A stretch of DNA of 62,132 nt from Methylococcaceae bacterium (GTDB lineage: Bacteria; Pseudomonadota; Gammaproteobacteria; Methylococcales; Methylomonadaceae). A program made the translations under genes and the position numbers. A model generated the notes under the pieces. That model made no database searches, was not told the DNA's origin, and saw nothing but the letters and a program-made list of their open reading frames with translations. Shown here piece after piece: positions 8,279-48,632 of the stretch. Location of the stretch: the NCBI GenBank assembly GCA_030626845.1, contig DAOUTG010000005.1, positions 1 through 62,132 on the forward strand, read 5' to 3'. Position 1 is the first letter of the stretch. The number at the start of each line of letters is the position of its first letter.

Positions 8279-9127
8279 TTAATCATCATCCTCATGAGGT
8301 TGTTGCGTAGGAATTGCCAATAAAGGAATCTGATAACTGTGCATAATTTCATTAATTTTCGTTTGATTTTCCGAAATCAATTGATCTAAAATAACTTTAC
8401 GCGCTTTATCTCCATAACGAACACCCATCGCCATTGAGAAATCAAATGTGACCGCTTTAGTTGATTGCATAGGCAAAACAATATAACTATCTGCGGAACT
8501 TTGCGATAATACATAACCTGCCATTGGCCCCCAAAGAATTGCCATATCTAATTTTTTAGCTTCTAAATCTTTAGCAATCGTCATAGAAATATTATTTTTA
8601 TCATCCCCTGTCATGGTTTGATAAGGAATTCCCTGATCTAATAAACCTTGTTGTTGTAACCAAGCAGTTCCAGGTCCTCGATCAAACATCGCTATTTTTA
8701 ATTGTTCTTGTTTAAGTAACGGTAATTTTGATAATTGCTCAGGTTGCGTAATATCATCAAACCCACGCCCTTTAGCAATTAATAATAAATACTGAGAATG
8801 ATAATAAGGTTGTGTCGTAATAGTTAGTTCATACCCTGAGGGAACACCCATCACGACATCACATTTATACTCACCACTGCCCTCTTTCAATTCCACTCTT
8901 AAAGTATTTCTAATAAAGCCAATACGCTGAGGAAACCAAGTATATTCAACTTCTTGACCTAATTTCTTGGCAAATAAAGCGGCAATTTTATTTTCAAATC
9001 CGTCTTGTTTTTTAGTTGAATAAGGGGGGTTTAAAGGATCGGCACACACTTTAAATTTATCAGCTGCATTAATGTTATCACTATTTGCTATTAATAATAA
9101 AGAGACTACTATGGTAAAAAATTTCAT
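8279..9127 (-). CDS. MxaJ/XoxJ-type periplasmic binding protein (quinoprotein dehydrogenase-associated)
   Basis: The 282-aa product has a signal peptide (cleavage near Asn-Ala-Ala, residue ~21) and a type 2 solute-binding fold. Its core reads VCADPLNPPYS, then GFENKIAALFAKKLGQ, then YTWFPQRIGFIRNTL, CDVVMGVPSGYELT and PYYHSQYLLL. This set is characteristic of the quinoprotein-dehydrogenase-associated binding proteins, including MxaJ and XoxJ, periplasmic partners needed to mature or activate PQQ methanol dehydrogenases. No dehydrogenase or cytochrome gene is beside it, so the partner is unknown. The acidic C-terminal tail (HEDDD) is unusual. It could also serve another PQQ alcohol dehydrogenase. 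The start is fixed by the signal sequence. Confidence 0.85.
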   Translation of the reverse strand: MKFFTIVVSLLLIANSDNINAADKFKVCADPLNPPYSTKKQDGFENKIAALFAKKLGQEVEYTWFPQRIGFIRNTLRVELKEGSGEYKCDVVMGVPSGYELTITTQPYYHSQYLLLIAKGRGFDDITQPEQLSKLPLLKQEQLKIAMFDRGPGTAWLQQQGLLDQGIPYQTMTGDDKNNISMTIAKDLEAKKLDMAILWGPMAGYVLSQSSADSYIVLPMQSTKAVTFDFSMAMGVRYGDKARKVILDQLISENQTKINEIMHSYQIPLLAIPTQQPHEDDD

Positions 9128-9287
9128 TTATTTTTTCCTAAATTTAAAAATATTACTTCATAACACCATTATATAACCCCTTGAGAGAAAAACATGGATT
9201 GCCTTTAATATTTAATTTATCTATTTAGCATTCATTTATCTTAAAATGCTAAACTAACCATCAACTTTCATTACGCTAAAAAACGCT

Positions 9288-11579
9288 ATGCTCTCCATAT
9301 TTTTAAAATTAGTTTTTACCACTATTTTTATTGCTGGCATCTTTTTATTATTTTATCTGATGGGACTTGATAATAAAATTCGTACCACTTTCAAAGATAA
9401 ACGTTGGGATATTCCTGCCCGTATTTATGCGAATCCTTTAGATTTATATGCAGGATTAAATTTAAAACAAACTGAATTTGAAGATTTATTAGAACAATTG
9501 CATTATCGACAAGATAAAAACTTACTTTCTGAAGGTTCTTATCATATTATTTCAAATAAAATTGAGCTAAAAACCCGAAATTTTGATTTTTGGGATGGAC
9601 GAGAAACAAGTCAACATTTACGTATTCAGTTTTCTAAAAATTCGATTAAGCAAATTACGAATGTAAAAACGCATAAAATAGTTCCCATAACACGGATAGA
9701 CCCTGTTCAAATTGGAAGTTTTTACCCTAAACGTAAGGAAGACCGAGTATTAATTAAACTTAAAGACGCGCCTGTTTCTTTAACACAAGGATTATTTGCC
9801 ACTGAAGATAGAAATTTTTATCAACATTATGGTATTTCTTTACGAGGAATTGCGCGAGCGGCTTGGCAAAATATACAAGCGGGAGGCTTAGTTCAAGGCG
9901 GAAGTACGATTACCCAACAATTAGTTAAAAATTTTTATTTAACCTCTGAACGTAAATTAAAACGTAAAATTAATGAAATTTTTATGTCCTTACTTTTAGA
10001 AATTAATTATGAAAAAGATGAAATTTTAGAAGCTTATTTAAACGAAATTTATCTAGGTCAAGATGGAGCTAATGGAATTCATGGTTTTGGACTGGCTAGT
10101 CAATTTTATTTTGGTCGGCCTTTAAAAAATTTACCGTTACATCAAGTGGCAGGATTGGTTGCATTAGTTAGAGGACCTTCTTATTATGATTTAAGACGAC
10201 ATCCTAAGCGCGCTTTAAAACGCCGTAATTTAGTTTTAACTGAAATGTTTAAGCAAAACTATATTACTCAGGAAGAATTAACTCAGGCAACGGCTAAATC
10301 ATTGGATGTAATCGCTCATAAACATCGTTCGGTCAATCGCTACCCTGCTTTTTTAGATAAAGTTAAACGTGAGCTTGCACAGCAGTATAAAAAAGAAGAT
10401 TTGACCACAGAAGGTTTAAAAATTTTTACAACCTTAGATTCTCAAATACAAAATCGTTTAGAAACCACGGTTGCTAAAAAAATAGCAACTTTAGAAAAAC
10501 GTCCTAAAAGTAGTCAATTAGAAGCGGCTGTTTTAGTCACTCGCAGAGAAAGTGGTGAGATTTTGGCTTTATTAGGGGGTAAAAAAGCAAATGAGGCAGG
10601 GTTTAATCGTGCTTTAGATGCAGTAAGACCCATTGGTTCATTAGTTAAACCTGCCGTTTATTTGACCGCATTAATGCAAACAGATAAATATACGATGGTC
10701 ACACCCGTCAGTGATACTAATATTCAGGTTGATAGCGGGGGTCAAATTTGGTCGCCTAAAAATTATGACCATAAAGAGCATGGGTTAGTCCCAATGCACC
10801 AAGCGTTAACTTATTCTTATAATTTAGCAACCGTTAGAATAGGGATGGATGTCGGTTTACAGCCAATTGCGAATACGTTGAAACGATTAGGGATTAATCG
10901 ACAAATTGAATTATTTCCCTCTTTACTATTAGGTGCATTACAATTAAGTCCATTTGAAGTCACCCAGATGTACCAAACTTTAGCAGGGGATGGTTTTATA
11001 ACTGAATTAAAAGCAATTCATACCGTGGTAGCAACAGATGGCAAACCACTACAACATTATCCTTTTATTGTTGAACAGCGTTTAGATCCTGCGGCAACCT
11101 ATATTATCAATACAATGTTACAAAAAGTTATGAGTAAAGGGACAGGAAAATCGGCGTATCAATATTTACCTAAAAACTTGGCGTTAGCAGGAAAAACAGG
11201 GACAAGTAACGAATTAAAGGACAGTTGGTTTGCAGGTTTTAGTGGTGATTATCTATCGGTCGCTTGGATAGGGCGCGATGATAATAAATCCTCAGGATTA
11301 AGTGGCTCATCGGGTGCATTGCAATTATGGAGTGCATTCATGAAGCAAATAGCGGTTCAACCTGTTAATTTAATTGCCCCTGATAATATTGAAATGGCAT
11401 GGATAGATAATAAGGGATTATTAGCCGATTATTATTGTCAAGGCGCTAAAAAGTATCCATTTATAAAAGGTTCAGTCCCTACTGAACTTTCATCCTGTAT
11501 TGCTTCAATGAAAGTTATGGAATCCAATACACCTTTATTTGATAAAGATGGACAACCGCTTCAAGCTAACCCTTTTTAA
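9288..11579 (+). CDS. mrcB: Penicillin-binding protein 1B (bifunctional transglycosylase/transpeptidase)
   Basis: Class A PBP that polymerises and cross-links peptidoglycan at the inner-membrane periplasmic face. The 763-aa protein has one N-terminal membrane anchor (about residues 5-27) and then a UB2H-like region. The GT51 glycosyltransferase domain shows EDRNFYQHYGIS (residue ~172) and GGSTITQQLVKNF (~203). The transpeptidase domain shows the serine motif SLVK (~448), SYN (~509) and KTGT (~636). The N-terminal wording DIPARIYANPLDLYAG is typical of PBP1b rather than PBP1a. lolA follows by 21 bases, and the pair probably forms an envelope operon. No LpoB is seen nearby. Start is supported by the membrane anchor. 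Confidence 0.96.
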   Translation: MLSIFLKLVFTTIFIAGIFLLFYLMGLDNKIRTTFKDKRWDIPARIYANPLDLYAGLNLKQTEFEDLLEQLHYRQDKNLLSEGSYHIISNKIELKTRNFDFWDGRETSQHLRIQFSKNSIKQITNVKTHKIVPITRIDPVQIGSFYPKRKEDRVLIKLKDAPVSLTQGLFATEDRNFYQHYGISLRGIARAAWQNIQAGGLVQGGSTITQQLVKNFYLTSERKLKRKINEIFMSLLLEINYEKDEILEAYLNEIYLGQDGANGIHGFGLASQFYFGRPLKNLPLHQVAGLVALVRGPSYYDLRRHPKRALKRRNLVLTEMFKQNYITQEELTQATAKSLDVIAHKHRSVNRYPAFLDKVKRELAQQYKKEDLTTEGLKIFTTLDSQIQNRLETTVAKKIATLEKRPKSSQLEAAVLVTRRESGEILALLGGKKANEAGFNRALDAVRPIGSLVKPAVYLTALMQTDKYTMVTPVSDTNIQVDSGGQIWSPKNYDHKEHGLVPMHQALTYSYNLATVRIGMDVGLQPIANTLKRLGINRQIELFPSLLLGALQLSPFEVTQMYQTLAGDGFITELKAIHTVVATDGKPLQHYPFIVEQRLDPAATYIINTMLQKVMSKGTGKSAYQYLPKNLALAGKTGTSNELKDSWFAGFSGDYLSVAWIGRDDNKSSGLSGSSGALQLWSAFMKQIAVQPVNLIAPDNIEMAWIDNKGLLADYYCQGAKKYPFIKGSVPTELSSCIASMKVMESNTPLFDKDGQPLQANPF

Positions 11580-41736: not shown

Positions 41737-42321
41737 TTAATCTGCATCAATTCCATAGCGACTACAAACGGCAGATAACCCCCCCGCAAAGCCTTGACCT
41801 ACCGCTGAAAAACGCCATTCTCCATTTTTCTTATAAATTTCGCCAAAAATCATGGCGGTTTCAATAGAATAATCTTCAGTTAAATCAAAACGTACAATTT
41901 CTTGATTCGTTTCATCATTCACAACCCGAATAAAAGCATTCTCTATTTGTCCAAAATTTTGGTTTTTTGAAACCGCATCATGGATTGTGACAACAATTGC
42001 AATTTTTGCTATATCTGATTGTAGGTCAAGCATAGATAAATCAAGCTTAACAACTTCATCATCGCCTTCACCATCGCCAGTTAAATTATCGCCCATATGT
42101 TCAACGGCATTATTTGCGCCTTTCAAATTATTATAAAAAATAAAATCTGAGTCGCTTCGTACTTTTTCAGTCGCATTCAAAATAAATGCCGAGGCATCTA
42201 AATCATAGGTTGCACCATCTGTTTGTCTTTCATCCCAGCCTAAACCCACTTGAATTTTTTTTAAACCTGGGTTTTCTTTAGAAAGCGACAGTCTGCCCCC
42301 TTTATTTAATTTTACAGCCAT
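41737..42321 (-). CDS. terD: TerD family calcium-binding stress protein
   Basis: A 194-aa TerD-domain protein covering nearly its whole length: VGLGWDERQTDGATYDLDASAFIL, HMGDNLTGDGEGDDEVVKLDL (calcium-binding acidic loop) and the closing EIYKKNGEWRFSAVGQGFAGGL. TerD proteins bind calcium and act in tellurite, phage and colicin resistance or general stress, usually in ter clusters with TerC, TerB or TerY. Here it is solitary, with no other ter gene adjacent. The acidic and aromatic signature is complete, so it should be functional. The exact role is unknown. Confidence 0.93.
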   Translation of the reverse strand: MAVKLNKGGRLSLSKENPGLKKIQVGLGWDERQTDGATYDLDASAFILNATEKVRSDSDFIFYNNLKGANNAVEHMGDNLTGDGEGDDEVVKLDLSMLDLQSDIAKIAIVVTIHDAVSKNQNFGQIENAFIRVVNDETNQEIVRFDLTEDYSIETAMIFGEIYKKNGEWRFSAVGQGFAGGLSAVCSRYGIDAD

Positions 42322-42482
42322 GTGATTCTCTTTTTAGTTAAGCCATGTTATTGGCGGAAATTTAGGCATATTGATGCCTGATAAAAAATGTATCTATTTT
42401 AAATTTCAAAGTAGCGTATTAATGTATCTACTTTAAATTCTAGGGTAAATCATATTTCAATATTTTTAACTAATTTTTAGTC

Positions 42483-44852
42483 TTACTTTGGAATTAATTC
42501 ATCAAGGGGAACCGGTTTTTTAATACCATAACCTTGGGCATAATCAACCCCTAATTCTTTAAGACTGTTAAGTATTTCATCATTTTCAACAAATTCGGCA
42601 ATGGTTTTTTTATTCATGACATGACCTATTTCGTTAATAGAGCGGACCATGGCTAAATCAATTTTATCTTCCAACATATCCTTGACAAATAAACCATCAA
42701 TTTTGAGAAAATCAACGGGTAAGTTTTTTAAATAGGCAAAAGAAGAAAGACCACTTCCAAAATCATCTAAAGAAAATGAACAGCCTTTATTCTTGAAATA
42801 AGCAATAAATTGAGTGGCATTAGTCAAATTGGCAATAGCGGCTGTTTCTGTTATTTCAAAACAAATTTTATTAAAAGGGATGTTATATTTTTCAAACATT
42901 CCAACAATAAAGTTTTGCATGGTTTCATCGGATAAAGAAAGACCTGATAAATTAATAGAACAGAGTGAAAGTTGTTCTAAAAAACCCTCATTTTTATTAA
43001 TCCATGAAAATAAATGATTAATAACCCAACGATCCAATTCACAAGCAATATTATAACGTTCTGCGGCAGATAAAAAAGCCCCTGGTGGAATTAAATTACC
43101 CTCTTCATCCTTATAACGGATCAAGGTTTCAAAATGTAAACCTTCGGTAATATCTACTATTGGGATAATCAATTGTCCATATAAACAAAATTTATCTTTT
43201 TGAATAGCCTCTTGTATTTTTTCCACCCAGAGCATTTCACCGTGTCTTAAACTCAATTCTTCATCATCGGGGTGAAAAATATGGACTCGATTTCGCCCTT
43301 TTTCTTTAGCCGCATAGCAAGCAGCATCGGCTTCTTTTAACACATCAACCGCATTACCACTATAACGGTTAATGGTTGATATTCCAATGCTTACGCTAAT
43401 AGTAAAGCTTTTCTCTTTCCATGAAAAATGAAAACCTTTAATAGAATCACGTAATTTTTCACAGGCATGAAAGGCTTGGTCTAAAGTATAGCTGTGCATT
43501 AATATTCCAAATTCATCGCCGCCTAAACGTGCTAATAAATCATTTTTACGAATTTGTCCTCGTAAAAGTTTACCTAGTTGTTTTAAGAGTTCATCACCTG
43601 CAAGATGACCACAGGTATCATTAATCACTTTAAATTGATCTAAATCTAAGTAACATAATACATGTTCTACAATTTGTTGATGGGTCGTTTGAACGGCTTG
43701 TTGGGCGCATAAATCAAATTCACTACGATTAAGCAAACCTGTTAAAGCATCATGACTGGCTTGATAAGCTATTTTTTCTGTTAATAAGTGGGTTTCAGTA
43801 ACATCTTCACACACTAATAGTATATGTTTTATTTTCTGTTCATTCGTCACTAAGCGAGCAGTTTCTCTAACCCAAATAATAGTATCGTGATAAAATTTTC
43901 TGATTTCCTGTTTATGAACTTGCTGTGGATAGGTTAAGCATTCTTTAATTAAGGCTTTGGCTATTTCTTTATCTTCAGGGTGAATAAAATCAAAAATATA
44001 ATGCCCTTGTAATTCGGCTGCCGTTGAATAGAGTTGTTTTGCCCCAAAATGATTAACAGAAATAATAATACCATTTAATTCAAGTTCAAACACCATGGTG
44101 GGGTTATTATCATAGAGTGCTAAATAACGATCTTTTGCAAGTGTAAGTGAGTTATTTTGCTGTTCTAGGATATGAATCATCTCATTAAAAGCATCAACAA
44201 GCGCCCCTATTTCATCATTATTAATCTTACTTGCGCGAAGGCTATAATTTTTTTCATGCGCAATTTTTTTTGTCGTGTTGACTAACTTAATCAGTGGAAT
44301 TAAAATAAGCCTGATGAATGGCATTGTAAATGAAAAAGTGATGATTGATGCGATAAAAAGAATACTTAAAATGACACCTATGTTCCGTATTTTTTTTTGA
44401 AATTCGTTGGTTAAATTAGCATGAATAAAAACAGTCCCTATTTTTTCTGAGTCTTCAGTAATATCTTCATAAACAAACAAGTCCATTTTTCTAAAGTGAA
44501 CGTCTGATTCTGAAACTAATAAGGGACAAAGGCGCTGTATAGATTTATCTAATGCACTAAATAATTTACCTTGTGCAGTATATATACAAGCAGAAATAAT
44601 ACTAGGAAATTCATTTAAAGTGTCTAAATTTTCTTTTAGCATGCGTTTATCGTTAAACAATAATGCAGCCGTACTGCGACTAGCAATTAAAGTTGCAATA
44701 GCAGAAATCTTTTTTTCAGTATTTTGTTTTAATTCTGCTGTTTCTATAATAAGTAAAAATGACGTTGCTAACACTAATGAAAATAAACTGGAAAATATTA
44801 AAATAGCAAGAATTTTCCATTTTATTGATAAGTTACCCATGAAGTTATTCAT
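42483..44852 (-). CDS. Membrane GGDEF-EAL c-di-GMP enzyme with periplasmic sensor, HAMP and PAS
   Basis: Domains in order: helix ~10-30, periplasmic CHASE8-like sensor (~31-155), helix ~160-180, HAMP (~185-235), PAS (~245-360), GGDEF (~365-525) and EAL (~535-789). The cyclase active site reads RLGGDEFGIL (~444), and the RxxD inhibition site precedes it as RKND. The phosphodiesterase domain has ETL in place of EAL (~572), but INLSGLSL, FEITETA, LDDFGSGLSS, LKIDG and QGYGIKKP are intact. Both activities are possible. The start at 44852 is preferred: it overlaps the YfiR-like stop (ATGAATAA) and follows GAAGG by 5 bases. The pair resembles YfiN with its repressor YfiR. PAS adds a second input. 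Confidence 0.9.
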   Translation of the reverse strand: MNNFMGNLSIKWKILAILIFSSLFSLVLATSFLLIIETAELKQNTEKKISAIATLIASRSTAALLFNDKRMLKENLDTLNEFPSIISACIYTAQGKLFSALDKSIQRLCPLLVSESDVHFRKMDLFVYEDITEDSEKIGTVFIHANLTNEFQKKIRNIGVILSILFIASIITFSFTMPFIRLILIPLIKLVNTTKKIAHEKNYSLRASKINNDEIGALVDAFNEMIHILEQQNNSLTLAKDRYLALYDNNPTMVFELELNGIIISVNHFGAKQLYSTAAELQGHYIFDFIHPEDKEIAKALIKECLTYPQQVHKQEIRKFYHDTIIWVRETARLVTNEQKIKHILLVCEDVTETHLLTEKIAYQASHDALTGLLNRSEFDLCAQQAVQTTHQQIVEHVLCYLDLDQFKVINDTCGHLAGDELLKQLGKLLRGQIRKNDLLARLGGDEFGILMHSYTLDQAFHACEKLRDSIKGFHFSWKEKSFTISVSIGISTINRYSGNAVDVLKEADAACYAAKEKGRNRVHIFHPDDEELSLRHGEMLWVEKIQEAIQKDKFCLYGQLIIPIVDITEGLHFETLIRYKDEEGNLIPPGAFLSAAERYNIACELDRWVINHLFSWINKNEGFLEQLSLCSINLSGLSLSDETMQNFIVGMFEKYNIPFNKICFEITETAAIANLTNATQFIAYFKNKGCSFSLDDFGSGLSSFAYLKNLPVDFLKIDGLFVKDMLEDKIDLAMVRSINEIGHVMNKKTIAEFVENDEILNSLKELGVDYAQGYGIKKPVPLDELIPK

Positions 44853-45405
44853 GATTGCCTTCAATAATATCAGCTAATTCTAATAGCTTTGCACTAATTT
44901 CTAAGCCGTTTTTTTCAATCAATTGTTTATTAATTTGAAATTTTATATGATTATTATTTTTAAAAAGCCGGATCATTCCTCCTTGATGGATAAAAGAGTC
45001 ATGTTCCCCAATGGTTAAAATATCTTTGAAATTTTTATCTGGTCTTACCTTTATAGTCGCTAATAATGAAAAATAAATAATATAACAGTGTTCAAATGAT
45101 TGAGAAAGATTGGCGTATCTAAATAGCTGTATTTTTTTCCCTTGAACCATTTTTTGTTCAATAGGATTGATTATATTTCCGAACGAGTCATGACCAATGA
45201 GGCAGATATTAAATGTTAAGGTGTTTTTTGGAGGCCAATAAACAAATTTTGTGAAATTATAAAGGTAAGCTGCCTTTATTTTGTATTCAACATCAATATC
45301 CTTAGAAAGGACATCATTTGAAAACAATAAGCAAAAACTAGCTATAATAATTTGTAGGAATACAAATAATTGTTGAAAAGCTATAATATTGGAAAAAGTA
45401 GTCAA
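44845..45405 (-). CDS. YfiR family periplasmic regulator (DUF4154)
   Basis: A 186-aa protein with an N-terminal signal-like hydrophobic stretch (~10-30). The mature part opens KIKAAYLYNFTKFVYWP, the characteristic YfiR start, and has FNICLIGHDSFG, CYIIYFS and GGMIRLFKNNNHIKFQIN. In Pseudomonas, YfiR binds the periplasmic part of the cyclase YfiN and holds it off. Here its gene overlaps the GGDEF-EAL gene by 8 bases on the same strand, supporting a repressor-enzyme pair. No YfiB lipoprotein follows in this operon. Family assignment is firm; regulatory direction is by analogy. Confidence 0.88.
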   Translation of the reverse strand: MTTFSNIIAFQQLFVFLQIIIASFCLLFSNDVLSKDIDVEYKIKAAYLYNFTKFVYWPPKNTLTFNICLIGHDSFGNIINPIEQKMVQGKKIQLFRYANLSQSFEHCYIIYFSLLATIKVRPDKNFKDILTIGEHDSFIHQGGMIRLFKNNNHIKFQINKQLIEKNGLEISAKLLELADIIEGNHE

Positions 45406-45487: not shown

Positions 45488-47104
45488 TTAATAATAGACT
45501 CTAAATGATCGCTGTATTTCCTCAAACTCATGTAGATAAGGTCTTACAACGTCATCATTAGCGGCGATAACAATTAAATCATGTGAAAATACTGAAGTAT
45601 TATACCAGTTAAAACTTCCTTCGATAACAATAGACTCGTCAATAATGCAATATTTAGAATGAATAGGAGAATAAGGCACAGGATGATTATCTTTACCATA
45701 GACTAACCCTACCGTAATACCCGCTGATTTTAATCGTTCAATAACAGGAAGTAAAGGGCGATTTAATTCTTCTTTCATTGTCCGTTCAACCCCAACTTTC
45801 CCTTGTCTTGCTAAATGCCCATTGAATAAAATATGGATATCAACGCCTCTATGTTTAGCATTAATTAACGCACAAATAACACTATCATGGTGATTGCCTA
45901 GTAATTCACCAATCAGAAATAAAGTAATTTTAATGGAGTGTTTCGCGCGATGAATTTCGGCTAAAATAGCATGATGAGGAAGGTAGTTTTCCCCATTTTG
46001 CATCGTGTGTCGACCAAAAGTATAAAGTAAATTAAATTGGCTAAAAGGGTCTATTCCATACTGCTGAATAATACCGCCACGCTGACTTTGAAAAATATTA
46101 TCCAATAACCGACAAACACCTTTAGAATGAAAAGTCATTCCTGACTCCCAATTTGCCCACCAACGATCAAAGGTAATATTAAATGAGCCTAAAATACAAT
46201 CTTCATCATTAAAAATGATAAATTTTGTGTGCATATCGGGTTCTACTTCAATTAAGGGGTCATTAGGGCTACAAACTACGCCCATTAATTCAACCCCCGC
46301 TTGTTTTAAACAAGCATAAGTTGGGCTATTGGTCAGGGTCATTTTTCGCCAATCAACAAGACACTGAACCCATACGCCTTGCTCACTTGCATGAACTAGG
46401 TGGTCTGTGAAATCCGCATCATCAATACAATCTACACTGACTTTTATCGTACAAAGTCTATCAGGATTATCTTGTTTACAATCTATCGTTTTATCAATTA
46501 AATGATGAATATAACTTTTAGGGTGGTAGGGGTGATTAGGTTGGCCTTTAGTAAATTTAGGCATAAGATTGAGTGAATCAAAATGGTGATTAATCCAATC
46601 AACATCATTTTGTAATTGATAAGGTTCTAGTTCATAAGTTTGATAATGATTATCTGTTGAGTGAAGTGTCGTTATTTCACGGTGTTGGTATTTATCCGAA
46701 CTGCCATGTAATTGTGTCCAATCCATAAAAATATAATCCCTTTTTGACGCAATGGATTGATTGTCTTTATGAATAATGAAGGAGAATTTAACACAATTAA
46801 TTTGCCCAAATAAATTGGAAAAAGGATGTAAATAAAAATCCCTAGTTCGGCGTTTATGTGTGTTCCATTTTATGTCATAAGCATCAGTATCAATAATATA
46901 AGTTTCGCAAATATTATGTTTACGGTAAACTTTTAAAACGACTTTTAAATTAATTGTCTCTCCCTGAAAAAGTTCAAATTCTATTTGCCCCCAGCGCAGA
47001 AAAAATTTATGATTAAAGTCATTGACTCTAGCGAATGAACGTCCTAATTCACCTTGTATCGGCTTTGCATAATATTCTGCTATTTGCATATCACTCTCTT
47101 TCAT
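45488..47104 (-). CDS. Phospholipase D-like protein with two HKD motifs
   Basis: A 538-aa protein. The N-terminal ~170 residues look like a beta-rich domain I cannot name. Two PLD half-domains follow. The first has HTKFIIFNDEDCILGSFN (~290-310) and the second HSKYCIIDESIVIEGSFNW (~490-510); both have the HxK..D..GSxN catalytic pattern. No signal peptide or membrane helix is seen, so it is probably cytoplasmic. Such a fold can hydrolyse phospholipids, nucleic acids or make cardiolipin. It is coded 22 bases after a CBM21/endonuclease-phosphatase-fold protein, so the two likely act together. Codon use resembles its neighbours. Activity and substrate are uncertain. Confidence 0.8.
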   Translation of the reverse strand: MKESDMQIAEYYAKPIQGELGRSFARVNDFNHKFFLRWGQIEFELFQGETINLKVVLKVYRKHNICETYIIDTDAYDIKWNTHKRRTRDFYLHPFSNLFGQINCVKFSFIIHKDNQSIASKRDYIFMDWTQLHGSSDKYQHREITTLHSTDNHYQTYELEPYQLQNDVDWINHHFDSLNLMPKFTKGQPNHPYHPKSYIHHLIDKTIDCKQDNPDRLCTIKVSVDCIDDADFTDHLVHASEQGVWVQCLVDWRKMTLTNSPTYACLKQAGVELMGVVCSPNDPLIEVEPDMHTKFIIFNDEDCILGSFNITFDRWWANWESGMTFHSKGVCRLLDNIFQSQRGGIIQQYGIDPFSQFNLLYTFGRHTMQNGENYLPHHAILAEIHRAKHSIKITLFLIGELLGNHHDSVICALINAKHRGVDIHILFNGHLARQGKVGVERTMKEELNRPLLPVIERLKSAGITVGLVYGKDNHPVPYSPIHSKYCIIDESIVIEGSFNWYNTSVFSHDLIVIAANDDVVRPYLHEFEEIQRSFRVYY

Positions 47105-47126
47105 TTTCTAGAATTATAATTATTTT

Positions 47127-48632
47127 TTAAAGGGGTTCAAAAGTCATAAAATAACCACAGTGATCAGAAACACGCCCGTAATCTTGATCGGTAAAAATAA
47201 CCTTGGCAGAAGTGACTTGCAACTCACTTTCTTTCCTCATAAAAATATAGTCAATTCGATAATCATCGGTTAATAGATCTTGCCAATGCGTATCGTTAAC
47301 GTTGAATATTTTATCAAATATACCTTGTTCATTAATGGCTAAATATTGATCTTCATAGTTACCTGAATCGACAACTAACTCATAACCCGTTGATCCTGCC
47401 GTGATATTAAAATCACCACATAATAAAGTCGCTTTAACGCCTTTGCTATGATTTTTTTCAGCCCATTGATGTAAGTATTCAAACTGTGTTTTAAAACCAT
47501 CTTCTAACCAACTTAAATGCGCTGAAAAAATATTAATCTTTCCAATAAAAGGGACATAGGCTTGTGCGGCAACCACTTTTCTTGAATGAATATCATAAAC
47601 ATCATCACTATCAGAAACATAACGCGCTTCATGATTAGTCAAAGGATAGCGACTTAAAATAGCTACCCCTTCTCTGTATTTATCAAAGCCTAAATGTGAC
47701 CAGTCAGTATGCAAATAAAAAGGTCTATTTAAGCGATCATTAATAATTTTTGCCGCATTGGATTCCCAATCACCCTCACCATCACGCCAATATTCTGCCA
47801 CTTCTTGTAAGCAAACAATATCAATTTCTAACGCATCAATCGTTTTTGCTATTTGAGTAAATTTTTCATCCTGATTTTTTTCTTGGTAACAATGTAAATT
47901 TAAGATGAGTAATTTTAATTGTTCTCGTTGAAAGCGATAATTATGTTCGCCATTATTCTCCCATAGTGTTTGCGCGCTATTTTCACATTTAATAATGTAG
48001 TGTAGCTTGAACCAATCACCATTTTTAAGTTCTGCTGTCCACAATTGGATTCCATATTGGTTTGGGTTTCTCGCATTACTTTGTAGACTTTTATCCCAAT
48101 AATCTTTTTTAATATCACAATTTGTTTTATGAGTTGTTTTCCAACAATCGGTTGTCCAATGAATCGCGACTTTTTCAGCATTAAATTCTTTAGCAACCGC
48201 AATCGTTAAAAAAATAGATTTGGGTTCATCATTCAAATGATTATCAAAATCTACATTTTGTATTTGTTGGCTATTAGTTAATTTAATGCCAGAATCCGCT
48301 TCACTCGTATAATTAAGACCGTGATTATTGTCCCAGTACTCCTTACCCGAAACACGATAACGTAAACTGAATTGAATATTACCCACAAGCGAGTGCTTTT
48401 CAGTTAAATTAAAACTAACACTTGCTGACCAGTATTCTTTATCATTACCTTGCATACTATGATAAGTTGAGGCTAAAGTTCGCCAAATACCATCTTCTCC
48501 CGTCCAAATCACATCCACTTGTTTACTATAACTAACATTATCTACCAAGATAAAAAAAGTGAGTTGCTGTTGAACTTGTGCTGTATTGCGAGTCATTATA
48601 TTTTTTACATAGAGTAATTTTATTTTATCCAT
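47127..48632 (-). CDS. Endonuclease/exonuclease/phosphatase protein with tandem CBM21-like domains
   Basis: A 501-aa protein of unusual design. Residues ~1-115 and ~120-230 each resemble a CBM21 glycogen/starch-binding fold: FSLRYRVSGKEYWDNNHGLNY in the first, FKLHYIIKCENSAQTLWENN in the second. Residues ~235-500 form an EEP hydrolase with all key residues: LNLHCYQ, CLQEV (metal Glu), FSAHLSW (His), CGDFNITAGS (Asp, Asn), YRIDYIFMR and VSDHCGYFM. This fold includes DNase I, sphingomyelinase and inositol phosphatases. No signal peptide is visible. CBM21 is otherwise known from amylases and eukaryotic glycogen-targeting subunits. It is paired with the PLD-like gene 22 bases downstream. The biological role is unknown. 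Confidence 0.8.
   Translation of the reverse strand: MDKIKLLYVKNIMTRNTAQVQQQLTFFILVDNVSYSKQVDVIWTGEDGIWRTLASTYHSMQGNDKEYWSASVSFNLTEKHSLVGNIQFSLRYRVSGKEYWDNNHGLNYTSEADSGIKLTNSQQIQNVDFDNHLNDEPKSIFLTIAVAKEFNAEKVAIHWTTDCWKTTHKTNCDIKKDYWDKSLQSNARNPNQYGIQLWTAELKNGDWFKLHYIIKCENSAQTLWENNGEHNYRFQREQLKLLILNLHCYQEKNQDEKFTQIAKTIDALEIDIVCLQEVAEYWRDGEGDWESNAAKIINDRLNRPFYLHTDWSHLGFDKYREGVAILSRYPLTNHEARYVSDSDDVYDIHSRKVVAAQAYVPFIGKINIFSAHLSWLEDGFKTQFEYLHQWAEKNHSKGVKATLLCGDFNITAGSTGYELVVDSGNYEDQYLAINEQGIFDKIFNVNDTHWQDLLTDDYRIDYIFMRKESELQVTSAKVIFTDQDYGRVSDHCGYFMTFEPL

Follow-up and report, generated by a model that had tools for sequence, protein, structure and literature searches.

The nearest functionally named relative, among the matches listed, of the enzyme reported here is MapP of E. 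faecalis. According to PMC3737437, Mokhtari et al. reported it to be a maltose-6-phosphate phosphatase; until then it had been a member of the EEP family with no assigned function. MapP is a stand-alone protein of 274 residues, and its gene lies directly downstream of a phosphotransferase system (PTS) IIBC gene (annotation of WP_002370688.1). A job similar to the one proposed below is done by the glucan phosphatases of the laforin and SEX4 type, SEX4 being the plant type, in which the phosphatase is held on the glucan by a carbohydrate-binding module. Glucan phosphatases have been studied in animals and plants, and loss of laforin causes Lafora disease. Here, we describe a two-gene locus in a stretch of 62,132 nucleotides from a Methylococcaceae bacterium (contig DAOUTG010000005.1, assembly GCA_030626845.1; hereafter the window), which encodes an EEP domain fused to two CBM21 modules and, next to it, a protein of the phospholipase D (PLD) fold. 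We take the source to be a relative of methane-oxidising bacteria. Two adjacent minus-strand genes separated by 22 bases had been noticed in an earlier reading of the letters alone (the original prediction), and the exact open reading frame coordinates agree. The parts of the locus are as follows:

47127 to 48632, minus strand: EEP gene, first of the pair, encoding the CBM21-CBM21-EEP protein of 501 residues (open reading frame, Pfam, full-length homologues)
48306 to 48578, minus strand: CBM21 module 1, residues ~19-109, containing WDNN...NY (PF03370, 47.3 bits)
47931 to 48239, minus strand: CBM21 module 2, containing WENN...NY (PF03370, 34.6 bits)
47160 to 47861, minus strand: EEP catalytic domain, MapP-like (PF03372; ~29% identity to E. 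faecalis MapP; fold match to 3TEB)
47105 to 47126, minus strand: intergenic gap of 22 bases between the EEP and PLD genes (open reading frame coordinates)
45488 to 47104, minus strand: PLD gene, second of the pair, encoding the PLD-fold protein of 538 residues (PLDc_2, 116.3 bits; homologues)
46685 to 47104, minus strand: beta-rich domain at the N-terminus of the PLD protein, residues ~1-140, possibly a starch-binding-like beta-sandwich (low-confidence model)
46178 to 46231, minus strand: HKD motif 1 of the PLD protein, HTK....N then GSFN (alignment counts)
45608 to 45661, minus strand: HKD motif 2 of the PLD protein, HSK....D then GSFN (alignment counts)

Two Pfam families and no others are found in the EEP protein, CBM_21 (68.4 bits over two stretches for the whole protein, cut-off 28.9) and Exo_endo_phos (63.9 bits, cut-off 24.5), and each CBM21 copy exceeds the family cut-off when scored separately. 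The N-terminal domains are therefore CBM21, as the original prediction had it. All 63 of 63 aligned rows, in which certain genes are represented more than once, share the catalytic EEP residues N245, E277, H372, D407, N409, D461, D490 and H491. The closest solved sequences to the modules are the starch-binding domain of a glucoamylase (2DJM) and the glycogen-targeting subunits of PP1 (R3A, R3B and R3C/PTG), where CBM21 sits in a PP1 regulator or a glucoamylase and not in an EEP enzyme. We infer that the two modules would dock the EEP protein on alpha-glucan. The predicted model of the protein (predicted local distance difference test, pLDDT, 81) has as its best structure match 3TEB, which is also the closest solved sequence to the EEP domain (Z 30.9, 239 residues aligned, root-mean-square deviation, rmsd, 2.6). 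It also matches 4C1R (BT3783), titled mannosyl-6-phosphatase (Z 24.8, 225 aligned, rmsd 2.8), an EEP fold that, going by the entry title only, acts on a glycan phosphate; BT3783 differs from the EEP domain in its sequence (18% identity) and in having mannosyl phosphate as its substrate. Further fold matches are to the nucleotide-acting enzymes PDE12, CNOT6L and nocturnin (NADPH). Since several types of enzyme are matched, the EEP fold alone leaves the substrate undecided. Inspection by eye shows no signal peptide in either protein of the pair, in line with the original prediction.

Judged by sequence, the EEP domain is more closely related to MapP than to EEPs of other kinds. Residues 237-496 are 29.8% identical to E. 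faecalis MapP (E 2e-15); no other of the best 10 of 68 rows from plasmid records carries a functional name. Nine MapP-type rows score 76-92 bits with the domain, compared with 57, 51 and 18 bits for three EEPs of other kinds. In a 21-row EEP tree, whose rows were grouped by us beforehand and whose outgroup branches are long, the CBM21-EEP group (support 91/98) and the MapP-type group (78/93) each occupy one side of a branch, and the two together are separated from ExoIII, L207 and L208 with modest support (72/77). MapP and the CBM21-EEP protein have in common the EEP motifs, an HxSW segment and a sugar and alpha-glucan gene context. A PTS IIBC gene adjoins the MapP-type gene in 8 of 8 loci with readable neighbours (context was taken from 9 of at most 70 plasmid records with an EEP match, nine relatives were grouped as MapP-type, and an unannotated Niallia stretch was left out of the neighbour count); two of these loci have malQ and phosphorylase as well, and several MapP-type loci also have GH65, alpha-glucosidase, malQ or phosphorylase genes. 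Two stand-alone EEP relatives in the class lie in operons of the order malQ, phosphorylase, EEP and PTS, in one of which malQ and phosphorylase are read as a single frame; the PTS protein of both operons fits a IIBC model that has no sugar assigned. The CBM21-EEP protein differs from MapP in its two added CBM21 modules, in its PLD partner and in its surroundings, where a tblastn search with the L196 PTS protein (E<=1e-5) gave no PTS relative in 129 stretches. Because the nearest functionally named relative among the matches listed is the sugar phosphatase MapP, a phosphomonoesterase is likelier than the phosphodiesterase that the original prediction had seen in the EEP domain, and we cautiously favour a sugar- or glucan-phosphate phosphatase.

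The two genes co-occur. Among 301 genomes from the order, own genome included (match at E<=0.001), EEP is present in 157 and PLD in 159; both occur in 152, EEP only in 5, PLD only in 7 (three of them weak matches) and neither in 137. Fisher's exact test on this co-occurrence gives a tiny p-value, computed over related genomes that are not independent. Where both positions are given (143 genomes), EEP is followed by PLD on the same strand in 126, with 5-710 bases between match ends, while the genes are far apart on one contig in 4 and on different contigs in 13, several of these at contig ends. Homologues are thus usually adjacent, which is the conserved pairing that the original prediction had asked for. 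Full-length homologues recurring across many genomes of the order place the arrangement far from chance. Named loci number nine: two from Accumulibacter, one from Hahella and the others with Methylococcales/Methylococcaceae or class-level names. Full-length copies are scarce beyond the order: of 398 genomes drawn across the phylum (own genome included, E<=1e-20), only the own genome has one, and two others have a stand-alone EEP domain. A class-wide draw of 369 genomes contained CBM21 in the own genome and, below the cut-off, in one other, G015; this last match was rejected as a relative, being a different protein, and it lies (L003, ~962-1300) in a frame beside a phosphoesterase frame which, from its motif, we presume to be PHP-like. 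Also rejected was an apparent EEP-PLD fusion in G459, where a 1042-aa PLD open frame proved to result from reading the EEP gene out of frame. In G563, the full EEP match is accompanied by a second, partial one (L186, 7217-9556), in a stretch with no glycogen gene and with PLD on another contig; a second EEP match is present in many other genomes too.

The genomic context of the pair was analysed in 120 stretches, mostly of 15-20 kb. Of the 157 genomes with EEP, 117 supplied these stretches, long contigs being preferred (three genomes contributed two stretches each). In 96 of the 120, a gene of glycogen metabolism is encoded no more than 6 kb from the pair; the same search on arbitrary 18-kb stretches from 20 of the same genomes found a glycogen gene in 0 of 20. 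By Pfam and NCBIfam, these neighbours are GH57 1,4-alpha-glucan branching enzyme, GlgX, GlgB, GlgC, GlgA and MalQ. Taking three glycogen genes as targets, the nearest one upstream on the same strand within 1.5 kb (n=117) proved to be the GH57 branching enzyme 64 times and glgA 28 times, with neither there in 25 cases, and the median gap to EEP is 84 bases from the branching enzyme and 124.5 from glgA. On a FastTree phylogeny of 117 EEP proteins, the glgA context accounts for two changes and all contexts together for 12; shuffled contexts give a mean of 46.2 changes, and 0 of 200 shuffles were as low as 12. These few changes indicate that the link to glycogen is not tied to a single arrangement. 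When the pair is separated (G481, G507 and G428, stretches L097, L099 and L101), EEP keeps its branching-enzyme neighbour and PLD moves, and in G443, where the genes are far apart, a branching enzyme lies ~1.2 kb upstream of EEP. Over the 301 genomes, EEP and the GH57 branching enzyme are both present in 141, each is alone in 16, and neither is present in 128. The presence of glgA was tried as a predictor of the pair and proved uninformative (292 of 301 match at E<=0.001, 262 above the glgA cut-off). The glycogen-directed role that the original prediction had suggested is thus backed by gene context on which that prediction could not draw, and the pair very probably has a role in glycogen or alpha-glucan metabolism.

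A DUF4912 protein is a further uncharacterised gene of these glycogen clusters. Of the 120 stretches, 47 encode it, as a rule immediately 5' of the GH57 branching enzyme (itself in 66 of 120), and it was seen across L077-L195, for example at 8628-9365 on the minus strand of L109.

We then turn to the partner. PLDc_2 matches the PLD protein in two stretches, and the PLD superfamily has as its motif form two copies of HxK(x)4D(x)6GSxN. Where the original prediction had counted two complete HKD sites, only motif 2 is canonical (H482-x-K484-x4-D489). Motif 1 reads H292-x-K294-x4-N299, with Asn in place of Asp and with D300 adjoining. Of 37 rows, 3 have a gap at this position and the other 34 all have Asn; in the Hahella protein of L011, outside those rows, the residue is Gly. 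A nuclease reading of the protein from the DrmC, NucT and cardiolipin synthase profiles was rejected, their scores being below the NCBIfam cut-offs. Its N-terminus, described in the original prediction as beta-rich and unnamed, receives no name from Pfam (the four families at E<=1 are PLD-type or marginal, with best stretches from residue 194 or later) and is modelled as beta strands in a poor model (pLDDT 51.5, 8 sequences). The best structure matches of this part are to the CBM21 of PTG (Z 8.2, rmsd 3.5, 104 aligned) and to an amylase N-domain (Z 8.2, rmsd 2.7, 104 aligned), Z ~8 being a common level for models without a clear match. A profile comparison (hhalign) of the N-terminus with the CBM21 modules of the EEP protein gave a probability of at most 0.3%, while the two CBM21 copies, as a positive comparison, detect each other at 74%. 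A starch-binding-like domain at the N-terminus of the PLD protein is possible on this model.

Taken together, the CBM21 modules, the kinship with MapP, the branching-enzyme and glycogen-synthase neighbours and the co-retention of PLD lead us to read the pair best as a module that removes phosphate esters from alpha-glucan, and we consider the chances about even that it is such a glycogen-docked, phosphoester-removing module. In the mechanism that we propose, the CBM21 modules would hold the EEP protein on alpha-glucan, where its MapP-type domain would strip chains of glycogen or maltodextrin of their phosphate monoesters, glucose-6-phosphate esters for example. Through its beta-sandwich N-terminus, the PLD protein may also be glucan-docked. 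PLD enzymes usually work through a phosphohistidine intermediate, and by such a route the protein would cut a glucan-linked phosphodiester to leave a monoester, which the EEP protein would then take off. That the PLD protein acts on a glucan phosphodiester is a tentative suggestion, and the order of the steps, PLD before EEP, is a guess. Phosphate-free chains would suit the branching enzyme and the glycogen synthase encoded next door. In PMC13011383, covalent phosphate is said to weaken the binding to glucan of branching enzymes from several sources, of which one is bacterial, which would give a reason for the neighbourhood of the pair.

Four other explanations have to be weighed against this reading. 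The EEP protein could dephosphorylate free maltodextrin phosphates from glycogen breakdown, with the PLD protein a separate, broad phosphodiesterase sharing the operon. Such scavenging would be in keeping with the maltose-6-phosphate activity of MapP (reported in PMC3737437) and with the genomes in which the pair is split and both genes are retained; two CBM21 modules, however, favour a polymer over a free disaccharide, and a single gene is seldom kept without its partner (5 and 7 of the 301 genomes). We regard this reading as unlikely. Unlikely too is the lipid or granule remodelling that the original prediction had entertained. Here, the PLD protein and a sphingomyelinase-like EEP would act on phospholipids at the boundary between granule and membrane, and we keep it as a minor rival: phospholipase D and phosphatidylserine synthase are among the structure matches of the PLD fold (low-confidence model), sphingomyelinases are among those of the EEP fold, and the Hahella pair follows genes for a CDP-alcohol phosphatidyltransferase, a cytidylyltransferase and an acyltransferase. 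Yet L011 is the one locus of this kind, set against 96 of 120 stretches in which a glycogen gene is near; inspection by eye shows no obvious transmembrane stretch, and the EEP domain groups with a sugar phosphatase.

If instead the docked enzymes hydrolysed the donor ADP-glucose (or UDP-glucose), or else a signalling nucleotide, close to glycogen synthase, they would limit synthesis. The glgA neighbour of 28 of 117 EEP genes and the nucleotide-acting members of the EEP fold would suit such a brake, but 64 of 117 have a branching enzyme in that place, and the nearest relatives lie beside sugar PTS genes, where ADP-glucose is not an expected substrate; we consider it improbable. Very improbable, in our view, is that EEP and PLD cut nucleic acid, for defence or for clearing RNA from glycogen. 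Both folds include nucleases, and the PLD protein has weak matches to the DrmC and NucT profiles. However, PADLOC gives no match for the EEP protein and only weak DrmC and Mko matches (<=37.3 bits) for the PLD protein, the NCBIfam score to the DrmC of DISARM is 37.9 against a cut-off of 133, a search of 50,697 phage records with the PLD protein alone found no match, the context is largely glycogen metabolism, and the one further EEP detected in the own genome, an ExoIII-like protein, has no meaningful match to CBM21-EEP. DrmC is like the PLD protein in its fold and in this weak profile similarity of 37-38 bits and unlike it in that no defence context was seen at the pair. The defence option of the original prediction was rejected on these scores, on the glycogen-enzyme neighbours and on the lack of a match to the PLD protein among the phage records.

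Several observations weigh against a glucan-phosphate role for the pair. On the side of the enzymes, the identity of the EEP domain to MapP is just ~29%, Tdp2, nocturnin and sphingomyelinases are likewise structure matches of the EEP fold at Z >20, motif 1 of the PLD protein is non-canonical, and the distant stand-alone EEPs L207 and L208 (Serratia) have no PTS neighbour; L207 we take to be YbhP-like from its neighbouring ybhQ. On the side of the context, 24 of the 120 stretches have no nearby glycogen gene, of which three are PLD-only halves, one (L104) has a branching enzyme just outside and 11 are read for less than 6 kb on one side. The genus of the window is among those without a nearby glycogen gene; it has glgA and no GH57 branching enzyme (0 of 6 genomes), and the pair is present in just 3 of 6. 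The Hahella pair is placed after phospholipid-synthesis-like genes. In addition, 137 of 301 genomes are without both genes although glgA-type matches are found in 292 of 301, indicating that the pair is not required for glycogen as such. Finally, PMC13011383 treats glycogen phosphorylation in organisms without laforin as an open question and allows that bacteria may be without glucan phosphate.

The immediate neighbours of the pair in the window are YfiR-like and YchF. At 41737-45405, YfiR-like and CHASE8-HAMP-PAS-GGDEF-EAL proteins separate the PLD gene from TerD, which directly follows the PLD gene in two relatives of the window's genus (L004 and L076). The Hahella stretch L011 carries at 2164-8939 genes for a DSP-phosphatase, a CDP-alcohol phosphatidyltransferase, a cytidylyltransferase and an acyltransferase and then the pair, an order reminiscent of E. 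coli ynbABCD.

Each component of the locus comes from a known family; what is new is their combination, the glycogen context and the relationship to MapP. No characterised system of this makeup is found among the literature matches listed, in agreement with the original prediction: these describe neither a CBM21-EEP protein nor its pairing with PLD, nor a glycogen phosphatase targeted by a carbohydrate-binding module in bacteria, and a search for CBM21, glycogen and phosphodiesterase together found no paper. CBM21 and DUF4912 are absent from the first 300,000 characters of the review PMC11046441. Laforin and the CBM21-EEP protein have unrelated catalytic domains, the latter combining an EEP fold with CBM21 and showing no dual-specificity phosphatase domain in Pfam. 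With its different catalytic fold, it can at most be a functional counterpart of laforin, outside the laforin family. Tandem CBM21 also occurs in a 256-aa protein encoded by an Eleftheria terrae plasmid (L203, 5800-6570), in which Pfam finds no EEP or other catalytic domain.

In its fullest and somewhat doubtful form, our proposal is that bacterial glycogen bears phosphate esters and diesters and that these are cleared by a dedicated pair, PLD and then CBM21-phosphatase, as an independent counterpart of laforin and SEX4. A phosphatase-like module conserved in glycogen clusters makes glycogen phosphorylation in bacteria directly testable, and two uncharacterised proteins, together with their DUF4912 neighbour, would join glycogen metabolism in this order.

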